Assembly (NCBI RefSeq): GCF_007753265.1
Contig: NZ_CP036349.1
Coordinates: forward strand, 3,939,363-4,003,362
Origin: Botrimarina mediterranea
GTDB taxonomy: Bacteria > Planctomycetota > Planctomycetia > Pirellulales > Lacipirellulaceae
Reading direction: 5' to 3'
DNA length: 64,000 nucleotides
Shown here: positions 60,019 through 64,000 of the stretch, in pieces
Position numbering within the stretch: the first letter of the stretch is position 1
Layout of the letters: each line of letters begins with the position of its first letter
Made by a program: the position numbers and the translations under genes
Notes under the pieces: model-generated
Database searches by the model: none
What the model saw: only the letters and a program-made list of their open reading frames with translations
Told to the model about the DNA's origin: nothing

Positions 60019-61062
60019 TTATCGCACCACGCCGGCGCTCTGGGCGGCAAGGCGCACCTCGCGGTCGGTCTGGTCGGACCAGTCGTCTTTTGTCGGGCGA
60101 TAACTGAACAGCCGCGAGTCAAGGTGTTCGTCGAACGTCGGCGCGCCGAGGTCGAGCTTGAACAGCGGGCGGTTGCTGGAGGTTAGCAGCGTCTTGTCGG
60201 CCAAACCCTCGGCCGACAGAGGGTCCTTGTTGTCGCGGTACTCAACAAGCACAGGGAAGCCCGTCGTCTCGCTCAGCGCGATGACCACGTGATTCGGTGT
60301 CCGTGGCGGGACCTCTTCATGGCCGTACAGCTGCTTGAGTCGTTCGGGGCGCCAGCGGCCCACCATCGCGGCGACGCGTTCATTGCGGAACTGCATCAGC
60401 CAGGGCTGGCCGAATGTGAAGGACTCGTCGAGGCCCGCCAGCAGCATCGGCAGGCCGCCGAAGCGAGACCAAGCCGACGGGTCGTCGGAGAGCGGTTGAT
60501 CCTCCTCGTCTTCGCTTCCTTCGACAGCACGTCGGACCTTCCGCAGATCGACGCGCGTGACCGAGCGGTTGGGCTGCGAGGGGTCGCCCCACGCCAAGTC
60601 GGTCCACATGAAACGGCTGTCCGAGACCCGCAAGAGCCGCGTCGGGAAGCCGGCGAGCTGGCCGGTCTGTTCCAACAAGAACTGCCGCTGCCCGCCGGCG
60701 CCGAGTTGGTAGTACTGGCCGCTGGCTTTGACCGGCTCGCCGTCGATCCAGCCGTGCTGGTCGATGCGGACGCCGACCGTCGAGTGCTCTTCGAGCATCA
60801 GCGCGGCGCGGCGGACGTAAGCGTTGCCGGGCCCTTCGCTCGAAGCCGCCACGCGCGGGGGCGGGGGCGAGGGGGCGGGGGGGGATTCGATCGGCTCGAT
60901 CACCAAGTCTTGCCGGCCGCCAGCTAAGCGGTCCATCAACACCTGATCGGCGAGCTCCAGGCCGTAGTAGGCGCCGACGCCGACTGCTAGCAGCGCGAGG
61001 CCCCGGGCCATCCATCCAAGGGACCGCCGCGAGGGGGTCGGGCTACGCGGGTTCGTCCTCAT
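60019..61062 (-). CDS. Membrane-anchored LolA-like protein of unknown function
   Basis: This 347-residue protein has one N-terminal membrane helix (LALLAVGVGAYYGLELADQV) and a Pro-rich spacer (ESPPAPSPPPPRV). The soluble beta-rich domain (STVGVRIDQHGWIDGEPVKA, RFMWTDLAWGDPSQPN, FKLDLGAPTFDEHLDSRLFSY) recalls LolA/LolB-type lipoprotein carriers in its strand pattern and in the final PTFDEHLDS..F.Y block. The function is not established. It starts at ATG 61062, divergent from the surface-protein genes. Confidence 0.7.
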   Translation of the reverse strand: MRTNPRSPTPSRRSLGWMARGLALLAVGVGAYYGLELADQVLMDRLAGGRQDLVIEPIESPPAPSPPPPRVAASSEGPGNAYVRRAALMLEEHSTVGVRIDQHGWIDGEPVKASGQYYQLGAGGQRQFLLEQTGQLAGFPTRLLRVSDSRFMWTDLAWGDPSQPNRSVTRVDLRKVRRAVEGSEDEEDQPLSDDPSAWSRFGGLPMLLAGLDESFTFGQPWLMQFRNERVAAMVGRWRPERLKQLYGHEEVPPRTPNHVVIALSETTGFPVLVEYRDNKDPLSAEGLADKTLLTSSNRPLFKLDLGAPTFDEHLDSRLFSYRPTKDDWSDQTDREVRLAAQSAGVVR

Positions 61063-61353: not shown

Positions 61354-62691
61354 ATGCGTGTCCAAACCTTGTTCGCGAACACGTTGCTGGTAGCCGCGGT
61401 AGCGGCCACTGGCTGCGCCGGCCGGATGGCCTACAACCTGCCGCCCGCCTCGCGCCTGATGCACCCAGGCCCGGGCGTTGACGGCCCTGGTCCCGGGGTA
61501 ATCCCGGTGGGGAATCAGATGATGGGCCCCGGCATGCCGGAACAGTTCGGCCCCGGCGGCACGCCGCCGATGCAGTACGGCGCTAGCCCGTGCTCCTACG
61601 AGGGCCAGCAGGTCCAATACTGCGAAGGGGGCAGCTGCCCCGTTGGCGGCGGCGGTTGCTACGGCGGCGGCGCCGGCGGCGGGATGGCCGCGGGCCCGAC
61701 CTCGCAGATCCAATTCGTCGGCGAAGACGGCCTCACCATCAACTGGGACGTCGCCAGCCAAGGGATGTTCGACTCGGCGTCGCTGTTCGTCCCGGGTCGT
61801 CAGGATTTCCCGCAAGGGGCGATCTTCCGTCTCAAGGTCAGCAACATCCCCGGCCGTGCCGGCGTGACGCTGTACCCGACGCTCGAGGTGGCGCCGGTCA
61901 CCTCACGGACCGACGCCTTCCTGGCGCACGCCGCGGTACCGGTGCAGTTCACTGAAGAAGACTTCGACCAAGTGATGAGCGGCAACTTCGTCACCAAGGT
62001 CATCTACCTGCCGGACCCCGAGTTCCAAGAGCTCGCGCTGTCGGGCGTCGAGACACTGGTGAGTACGCGACTCGATCCGGGTGTGGACCCGGTCGCCGAA
62101 GCGGACCGTCGCGGCTCGATCCTCGCGGTCTTGCGGATGGGCAGCAAGGACCTGAACAACCCGGGCGCCGGCTACCAAGAGAACGTCATCCCCGCCGCTT
62201 ACGGGGAAGGTTGTGACAACTGCGGCCCGAACGGCGGCGGCTCGTCGCCGAGCTTCAGTGGGCCGATGGCGGGCTCGGCTGGCGGCGCCAACATGCCGAT
62301 GGGCATGCCGACCGCCGGCTTCGCTCCGACGCCGATGCCGCCGCACATGATGGCCGGCGCCCCGCAGTGGGGCATGCCGTACACGGGTACGCCGATCGGC
62401 CTCCCCGGCCCGCCGCACCTCCCGTTGGGTTCGCCCGCCGGCCTGCGAAAGCACACGATGAAGAACCGCACCCGGGTCCACCTGCCGCCGCCGACGAACG
62501 CCGTCAATATCTCGGTCAAGCAGCGTCCTGGCTTGAACTACCCGAATCCTGTGACGCACGTCCACGTGGACGAAGTGAACCGCGCCCCGTTCAACCCGCT
62601 GCACGGCACCGTGAAGCCGGGGACTGGGATCCGCACCGCGCTGCAGGGGGCCCAGGTCTACGGCAACCACGGCGAGCAGTACTGCGAGTGA
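61354..62691 (+). CDS. Surface lipoprotein with Pro/Gly/Cys-rich flanks and a shared domain
   Basis: This 445-residue lipoprotein has a signal ending ATGC with C21 as the lipid-attached residue. Residues 25-110 are Gly/Pro/Cys-rich (PCSYEGQQVQYCEGGSC). A folded domain over about 115-295 contains IQFVGEDGLTINWDVASQGM, GVTLYPTLEVAP, TEEDFDQVMSGNFVTKVIYL and RGSILAVLRMG. The C-terminal 150 residues are again Pro/Gly/Met-rich and end with Arg/His-rich strands. ATG 61354 has GAGGGGGGAA in front and gives the lipobox; a longer frame begins at 61210. The folded domain recurs in the next gene, and a third exported gene follows, so this looks like one envelope unit. Confidence 0.8.
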   Translation: MRVQTLFANTLLVAAVAATGCAGRMAYNLPPASRLMHPGPGVDGPGPGVIPVGNQMMGPGMPEQFGPGGTPPMQYGASPCSYEGQQVQYCEGGSCPVGGGGCYGGGAGGGMAAGPTSQIQFVGEDGLTINWDVASQGMFDSASLFVPGRQDFPQGAIFRLKVSNIPGRAGVTLYPTLEVAPVTSRTDAFLAHAAVPVQFTEEDFDQVMSGNFVTKVIYLPDPEFQELALSGVETLVSTRLDPGVDPVAEADRRGSILAVLRMGSKDLNNPGAGYQENVIPAAYGEGCDNCGPNGGGSSPSFSGPMAGSAGGANMPMGMPTAGFAPTPMPPHMMAGAPQWGMPYTGTPIGLPGPPHLPLGSPAGLRKHTMKNRTRVHLPPPTNAVNISVKQRPGLNYPNPVTHVHVDEVNRAPFNPLHGTVKPGTGIRTALQGAQVYGNHGEQYCE

Positions 62692-62747
62692 TGGCTGCTG
62701 CGAGTGCGTAACGCCACGATTCTTCACGAGAGACGCTAAGAGTAATC

Positions 62748-63500
62748 ATGACAACGGTCCGCCCTCTCAGATGCGTCCCGCGAAAGCGGGGCCTTGCCGC
62801 TAGCAGCGTGATGCTGTTGGCGACGCTGGGCGGATTGCTGCCGAGCTTGCCTCAACACTCGGCCGCCGAAACGCCCAAGCACTGGCTACACGCCGGCGCC
62901 ATGCCTCCGGGAGCGATTGGGAATCAGCGGCTTCTGAGAGGCGGACCGTTGTATGGTTACACACAGCCGATCGAGTGGCGGATGCCTGCGGGCACGAGCA
63001 TCGCGGCGACGGGCCCCTACGGCGAGACGACCGATCGGTCGGAGCGTCTCAAGGTGGGCATCCTAGCGGGACAGCTCTATCGCTTCCGTGTCGAGGGGGT
63101 CCCGGGCATGGAACAAGCGGTCGTCTACCCGACCATCGAGTTGATCGACCGCACCTACCCGCCCTGCGGACGGGAGAGCGAGTTTCCGATCCCCATCGAA
63201 CTGACGATGGAAGACCTCCGGCTCGCCGCCGAGGGCGCCTTCGTTACGCGGGTAGTCTATGTCGAGGACCCAAAGACGGCGTTGCCGGTCTCGGAGAAGG
63301 AAGCGGGCGGCCAGCAGTGGTTCGAGGCCCGGCCGACCGACGACCCGCTCGTCCTCGCCGATGAGTTGGGCCGCCCCGTAGCGATCGTCCGCCTCGGCGC
63401 CCGCGACACGGGCGTCCTAGCAACGGGCTGCTACGCCGAACCCACGCCGCTCGCCGACGCCGCACCGGAAAGCGAAGTGCGTCCAGCATCAACTCACTAA
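62748..63500 (+). CDS. Exported protein sharing a domain with the preceding lipoprotein
   Basis: This 250-residue protein has an N-terminal signal (SVMLLATLGGLLPSLPQHSAAE) and a domain homologous to that of the upstream gene. QAVVYPTIELID matches GVTLYPTLEVAP, LTMEDLRLAAEGAFVTRVVYVEDP matches the TEEDFDQ...VTKVIYLPDP block, and LGRPVAIVRLGARD matches RGSILAVLRMGS. It lacks the Pro/Gly-rich flanks and the lipobox. It starts at ATG 62748, 57 bp after the previous stop, with AGAGACGC upstream. The gene pair probably arose by duplication. The function is unknown. Confidence 0.8.
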   Translation: MTTVRPLRCVPRKRGLAASSVMLLATLGGLLPSLPQHSAAETPKHWLHAGAMPPGAIGNQRLLRGGPLYGYTQPIEWRMPAGTSIAATGPYGETTDRSERLKVGILAGQLYRFRVEGVPGMEQAVVYPTIELIDRTYPPCGRESEFPIPIELTMEDLRLAAEGAFVTRVVYVEDPKTALPVSEKEAGGQQWFEARPTDDPLVLADELGRPVAIVRLGARDTGVLATGCYAEPTPLADAAPESEVRPASTH

Positions 63501-63511
63501 AAGAAAGATGC

Positions 63512-63572
63512 ACCACGACGGACACGACGAGCACGACGGATCGTTCGTCGTGCTCGTCGTGTCCGTCGTGGT
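63512..63572. repeat. Perfect 27-bp hairpin of the ACGACGGACACGA family
   Basis: ACCACGACGGACACGACGAG and on (63512-63538) pairs without mismatch with 63546-63572 around a 7-nt loop. It starts 12 bp after the stop of the preceding gene and ends 25 bp before the next start. It is the most perfect member of the family that also includes 59890-59974. Confidence 0.95.
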
Positions 63573-63597
63573 TAACTCTTGTTTCGAAGAGAGCGCG

Positions 63598-64000
63598 ATG
63601 AGCACACGATTGGACTCGCCGATGATGCCGAACTGGTTCCGGCGGACGCTGGTTATCGTCGCGGCGCTGCTAATGTGTTCTTGCCGCGCTTATGGGCAGG
63701 ATTGTCTGAGCTGCCCGGTCGGCCGTGACGGTAGCGCCAAGGGCGGTTGCAACGTCGAAGGGGGTTGCCCCGTTTGTCAGCCGGATTGCTTCGCCGGCCC
63801 TGGCGACGAGTACTTGTGCGACGGCGGCGACGGCGCCTACTCGACCGGCGTCATGCGTGACGGCAGCCTCTCCGGCTTTGAGCAAGAGGACACCGTCGCC
63901 ACCTACACCGGCTGCGAAGGCAAGACGATCGTCGCGCCGAGCTCGCGGGTTTGCATCTATGCGCCGCGTTTCGCGTCGGTGCGGCAGGTCGTTTATCCGA
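63598..64000 (+). CDS. Exported Cys-rich surface protein (partial, N-terminus only)
   Basis: The first 134 residues of a longer protein run from ATG 63598 (AAGAGAG upstream) to the right edge. The signal reads LVIVAALLMCSCRAYGQ, with a possible lipobox at C28-C30. The mature start is Cys-rich (DCLSCPVGR, GGCNVEGGCPVCQPDC), followed by DEYLCDGGDG, EQEDTVATYTGCEGKTI and VCIYAPRFASVRQVVYP. I recall this order from planctomycete proteins annotated with DUF11 domains and Cys-rich outer-membrane proteins, but the DUF11 repeats would lie beyond the window. It is third in line after the two domain-sharing exported proteins. Confidence 0.75.
   Translation, partial: MSTRLDSPMMPNWFRRTLVIVAALLMCSCRAYGQDCLSCPVGRDGSAKGGCNVEGGCPVCQPDCFAGPGDEYLCDGGDGAYSTGVMRDGSLSGFEQEDTVATYTGCEGKTIVAPSSRVCIYAPRFASVRQVVYP

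Follow-up and report, generated by a model that had tools for sequence, protein, structure and literature searches.

Three consecutive genes for exported proteins lie at the end of the 64,000-nucleotide stretch of Botrimarina mediterranea DNA that we analyzed (the window), and the question they raise is whether their products form one envelope structure and, if so, of what kind. The initial annotation had described a run of three exported-protein genes on the plus strand, and these are present with predicted signals (Table 1). Third-position G+C in genes 1 to 3 is 0.79-0.87, typical of real genes by codon-position G+C; gene 3 most likely starts at the ATG at 63598 and ends beyond the window at G000:C1:4004063, which gives a product of ~367 aa. 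No conserved RNA in the region reached the gathering score, and a promoter and terminator scan was uninformative in this high-GC genome.

Table 1. Features of the locus (window positions, unless a contig is named)
Feature	Position	Strand	Description
Gene 0	60019..61062	-	347 aa, divergent, exported, predicted membrane-anchored, LolA-fold-like
Gene 1	61354..62691	+	ORF, 445 aa, predicted lipoprotein; Pro/Gly arms flank the shared domain
Gene 1 predicted lipidated Cys	61414..61416	+	MRVQTLFANTLLVAAVAATG-C; sequence and lipobox scan
Shared domain, gene 1 copy	61705..62160	+	152 aa; alignment, AlphaFold model
Gene 1 C-terminal Pro-rich conserved motif	62368..62598	+	GTPIGLPGPPHLPLGSPAGL..H..KNRTRV..PPPT...YPNPV
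Gene 2	62748..63500	+	ORF, 250 aa, predicted Sec-exported
Shared domain, gene 2 copy	62970..63407	+	hhalign against the gene 1 domain
Palindrome, spacer of genes 2 and 3	63512..63572	none	61 bases, near-perfect
Gene 3 (part in window)	63598..64000	+	predicted lipoprotein (..VIVAALLMCSC)
Gene 3 63-residue module	63802..63990	+	GDEYLCDGGD...VAPSSRVCIYAPRFASVRQV
Gene 3 DUF11 domain	G000:C1:4003776-4004057		past window end

Signals were assigned by a simple pattern scan, in which the products of genes 1 and 3 have what defines a bacterial lipoprotein, namely a signal peptide and a lipobox with its Cys. The lipid anchor claimed for gene 1 is thus predicted from its lipobox AATGC (AATG-C in the window copy), and a lipobox was found in 76/79 homologues from Pirellulales and in most families outside that order; because the f18 proteins have none, gene 1 lipidation is not universal. 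For gene 3 the window copy reads LMCS-C, and 56 of the 62 separate Pirellulales homologues have a lipobox. The signal peptide of gene 2 is of the Sec type.

The unnamed domain that the initial annotation had seen in both gene 1 and gene 2 is real: the two copies are 31% identical over 114 aa by BLASTP (E = 1e-14), and profile-profile alignment with hhalign joins gene 1 residues 119-266 to gene 2 residues 75-220 at 99.9% (E = 2.4e-32, 144 columns). This domain of ~145 residues occurs in only two copies in the genome, those in genes 1 and 2, and the gene 1 copy has 25 invariant columns in an alignment of 32 diverse class-wide sequences. A match to a described family had been named as the result that would count against novelty, and no known family was matched in Pfam, NCBIfam, or the PDB: none of the 32 sequences matched Pfam, NCBIfam gave a single sub-threshold match and none that was credible, and the domain profile found no credible relative among PDB sequences (best E 0.21). 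By these searches, the domain is a family new to the libraries searched. Its AlphaFold model is confident (pLDDT 85.3, pTM 0.83), and Foldseek gave no match to PDB folds (best E 0.81) or to BFVD; since the alignment behind the model is of low diversity (82% mean identity), a new fold is a reasonable reading of the model, but unproven. Two candidates were rejected, a PilZ fold as chance (probability <= 0.21, TM <= 0.35) and FapA, which matched 1/32 members at E 0.066.

In a tree of the domain, the gene 1 copies fall into one clade (40 sequences) and the gene 2 copies into another (39 sequences). Both clades are arranged largely by family and mirror the same family groups; by this tree, the two domains arose by an ancient duplication and have since been inherited vertically. 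Unlinked paralogues of the gene 1 domain were seen in single genomes (L109 7541-8479 and G090:C3:136222-136674), the first at a locus with no gene 2 or gene 3 partner seen, and a 1709-aa frame elsewhere (G096:C178:76948-77406) also bears the domain.

Gene 3 has a different makeup. Upstream of its C-terminal domain lies a 63-residue module with the consensus DEYLCDGGD...EDTVA.Y...PSN.VCIYAPRF..VR, with a mean column identity of 54% over 35 diverse aligned sequences and a pLDDT of ~90; it has no relative in the PDB and is, as far as sequence comparison goes, new. The C terminus itself is a single Ig-like DUF11 domain (PF01345; E = 2.5e-6, 28.2 bits against a cut-off of 24.6), modeled at a pLDDT mostly of 93-98 and followed in nearly all homologues by a terminal VR or IR. 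A DUF11 match at E <= 0.01 was obtained for 50/50 gene 3 homologues, the first homologue lying just under the cut-off at 24.1. The relationship to DUF11 proteins proposed in the initial annotation therefore holds above the Pfam cut-off, though the domain is located past the window end, so that DUF11 had been inferred there unseen. Across all genes and whole alignments, the only known families that Pfam and NCBIfam returned for genes 1-3 were DUF11-type domains in gene 3. Gene 3 resembles the DUF11/TIGR01451 repeat proteins in this C terminus but differs from them in that DUF11 is just a small part of the system, alongside a new module of 63 residues and a new domain in genes 1 and 2.

Whether the three genes belong together was judged from their linkage in other planctomycetes, and unlinked genes in relatives had been named as a second result that would count against the proposal. 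The sample of 39 primary loci was made up of the locus in the window and 40 regions of ~20 kb taken from other genomes, from which two loci with paralogues were dropped. The order 1-2-3 is kept class-wide, in 39/39 of these diverse loci, which bears out the proposal that the genes are a unit: gene 2 lies directly downstream of gene 1 in each, and a gene 3 homologue lies directly downstream of gene 2 or is fused to it in all 39. Among named Pirellulales genomes, every locus long enough to display this order has it as well. Genes 2 and 3 are separate in 24/39 loci and form one fused reading frame in 15/39; the fusion occurs in five families (f18 and f20-f23) and in one f19 genome, and in the fused frames that were read no signal peptide is evident between the two parts. 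The stop and start of genes 2 and 3 overlap by 4 bp in 15 of 62 loci. As a control, besides gene 0, no neighbor within ~8-12 kb was common to more than 12 of 41 loci. Gene 0, which the initial annotation missed, has a homologue in the same divergent position in 32/39 primary loci.

The C-terminal Pro-rich stretch of gene 1 (GTPIGLPGPPHIPLG.PAGL..H...N.T) is 57-60% identical across orders, with E values down to 4e-24; its G[LI]PGP core is found in 75/79 Pirellulales and in nearly all f19 loci and is absent from f18 and f20-f23. Lineages without the motif are mostly those with the gene 2-gene 3 fusion, and one f19 locus (L116) has motif and fusion together. A 22-residue match to the GTPIGLPGPPH part of this motif (77% identical, E = 4e-5) was also seen in another protein, a 648-aa frame (G115:C1:1445328-1445393).

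The distribution of the genes follows the class closely. A gene 1 domain is present in 388/398 Planctomycetia genomes, in 336 of the 340 good ones, in 183/187 genera, and in 41 of the 44 genomes of Botrimarina's family; that family search included three other genomes of the same genus, and the domain is 95% identical to the window copy in Botrimarina colliarenosi and 87% identical in B. hoheduenensis. One good genome among the four exceptions (G296) does contain gene 0 and, at the very end of a 13,210-base contig, the first 30 domain residues; its apparent lack of gene 1 is an assembly gap, because the contig ends inside the gene. Across a sample of the whole phylum, the profile of the domain matched 40 genomes of the class and one outside it (G452, in a small single-domain lipoprotein), and the linked triad 1-2-3 was seen only in Planctomycetia. 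The gene 3 module is present as a single copy in each of 21 Planctomycetia genomes; its one match beyond the class is weak and lies in a small lipoprotein of G471 whose tail resembles DUF11. Given these two small lipoproteins, simple ancestors of the system may exist in other Planctomycetota. Three loci labeled Phycisphaerales or Candidatus Kuenenia (L196, L201, and L203) contain gene 1 domains ~70% identical to the window's and are probably mislabeled or misbinned metagenome-assembled contigs.

Gene order, co-inheritance, domain paralogy, the recurrent gene 2-gene 3 fusion, and restriction to the class are what we observe, and they point to a single Planctomycetia-specific protein complex of the outer envelope with a structural role, a reading to which we assign a probability of roughly 0.55. 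The predicted lipoboxes, the 4-bp overlaps, the LolA-like divergent neighbor, and the parallel family groups of the two domain clades also favor it. The core of the earlier interpretation, an undescribed envelope unit, is strengthened. In such a complex, the products of genes 1 and 3 would be lipoproteins, the gene 2 product is predicted to be released by signal peptidase I, the paralogous domains of genes 1 and 2 would pair with each other, and the gene 3 product would join through the gene 2 product. The complex may be located on the periplasmic side of the outer membrane or else on the surface. From there, the gene 1 product with its Pro-rich arms and the gene 3 product with its Ig-like DUF11 end could reach to a partner such as peptidoglycan, another wall protein, or the inner membrane. 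The complex would then be structural, as a scaffold or tether, and not enzymatic; no catalytic family in Pfam or NCBIfam matched anywhere in genes 1-3. Where gene 0 is present, its LolA-like product may help to deliver or assemble the lipoproteins.

The genes might instead encode a sensor or ligand-binding module, in which the shared domain would bind a ligand of the periplasm or cell surface (a glycan, peptide, or lipid) and report or transport it. A binding site could account for the extreme conservation of the domain core, and a Ser/Thr kinase of 1624 aa in another genome (L107 7360-12234, minus strand) has the gene 1 domain twice, each time as a partial copy, in its extracytoplasmic part, as a sensory role would suggest. 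We nevertheless consider this reading unlikely, on the grounds that no regulator, kinase, or transporter gene is conserved beside the main locus class-wide and that gene 2, which retains the domain, diverges fast.

A role in handling lipids or lipoproteins comes up through gene 0. The profile of the gene 0 family gave 12 matches in the PDB at E < 1, all of them to LolA (best E 0.016), and the NCBIfam lolA model (TIGR00547) matched 4/24 members (best 7e-4); there was no Pfam match, PF03548 included. The profile matches are individually weak, each falling short of the usual significance, but that all twelve are LolA does not look like chance. Canonical LolA (PF03548) gave no match in the window genome and was above the cut-off in just 1 of 13 genomes searched, and LolCDE has been reported in T. 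immobilis (PMC8567305). Gene 0 is one candidate for the LolA of these bacteria; it differs from LolA in being longer (~350 aa), apparently membrane-anchored, below Pfam detection, and linked to a class-specific operon. If gene 0 were a LolA-type carrier, genes 1-3 could be the outer-membrane receptor or acceptor that replaces LolB, and both the divergent linkage and the scarcity of PF03548 would agree with that. Yet none of the nine f20 genomes searched has gene 0, nor does G054, which makes it a frequent but not obligatory partner, and the f20 genomes retain genes 1-3 without it; moreover, the gene 1 domain and gene 3 bear no sequence resemblance to LolB, nor was a fold match obtained for the former. 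A LolB replacement accordingly strikes us as quite improbable.

In the initial annotation, the three proteins were pictured as a possible disulfide-linked surface layer or stalk-like structure, and cysteine content bears directly on the first of these. Gene 1 contains 1.3-3.4% Cys in the Botrimarina family versus 0-1.9% in other families; for gene 3, fused forms included, the values are 1.5-4.2% and 0.4-2.7%, against a crude background median of 1.0%. A clear Cys richness of gene 3 is thus seen mainly in the Botrimarina family. Just two Cys positions recur widely in gene 3 (24/39 and 32/39), and they are compatible with one internal disulfide. Because Cys content varies by lineage, the system as a whole is not characterized by a cross-linked, Cys-rich layer. 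A stalk would likewise be unlikely, since the genes are near universal and single copy in the class and stalks are not.

DUF11 also occurs in OmcB of chlamydiae, another PVC lineage. The chlamydial precedent pairs the lipoprotein OmcA with OmcB, a large Cys-rich partner (PMC2811131), and our locus is like it in combining a lipoprotein with a DUF11-type envelope partner; it is unlike it in that gene 3 has one C-terminal DUF11 and no array, its Cys levels are not maintained across the class, and nothing in Pfam is related to the domain of genes 1 and 2. An OmcA/OmcB-like disulfide-linked layer or stalk, for which the DUF11 end of gene 3, the gene 1 lipoprotein, and Cys levels of up to ~4% in the Botrimarina family might speak, is very unlikely, given that the elevated Cys is lineage-specific, that two common gene 3 Cys suit a single internal disulfide, and that in Pfam the 50 gene 3 proteins gave DUF11-type families and one stray match with none to an OmcB-specific family.

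The Planctomycetia envelope is a long-running puzzle, with its SDS-resistant wall, its crateriform pits, and division without FtsZ. Crateriform structures are pits of the outer membrane that contact the inner membrane and are a hallmark of the class, as is the protein wall. We know of no gene assigned to the pits, and for the wall only of the YTV proteins. An SDS-resistant protein wall has been described in planctomycete envelopes (reviewed in PMC3422733), and the Cys-rich YTV proteins are restricted to Planctomycetia (PMC10632474, PMC8567305). In Planctopirus limnophila, crateriform structures link the outer and inner membranes (PMC5394234), and the described Phycisphaeraceae are reported to be without them (PMC8882080, PMC7783415). 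Since genes 1-3 occur in almost all Planctomycetia and hardly at all beyond the class, they could be a core part of the crateriform structures or of a class-specific protein wall, a proposal we hold to be quite doubtful; because the phyletic pattern fits any class-defining trait, budding included, it serves as a lead but does not count as evidence for any one structure. The YTV domain of Pfam had no match in genes 1-3 or in the homologues scanned, and genes 1-3 differ from the YTV wall proteins in architecture and in being single copy at one locus. We found no paper in the open-access literature searched that names genes 1-3. A single-copy, class-universal, and class-restricted set of envelope lipoproteins with an unrecognized fold gives concrete genes to study; both the domain of genes 1 and 2 and the 63-residue module merit family entries, as near-universal proteins of the class that match no curated family.

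The palindrome in the spacer of genes 2 and 3 has a 29-bp stem with arms CACGACGGACACGACGAGCACGACG and a folding energy of -59 kcal/mol as RNA. Its half-sites occur 38 times in the window genome at <=3 mismatches, against 0 in the control; in the same genus, 10 were counted in one genome (G007) and none in two more. The palindrome looks like a dispersed genome repeat that lies outside the gene 1-3 system and has recently expanded.
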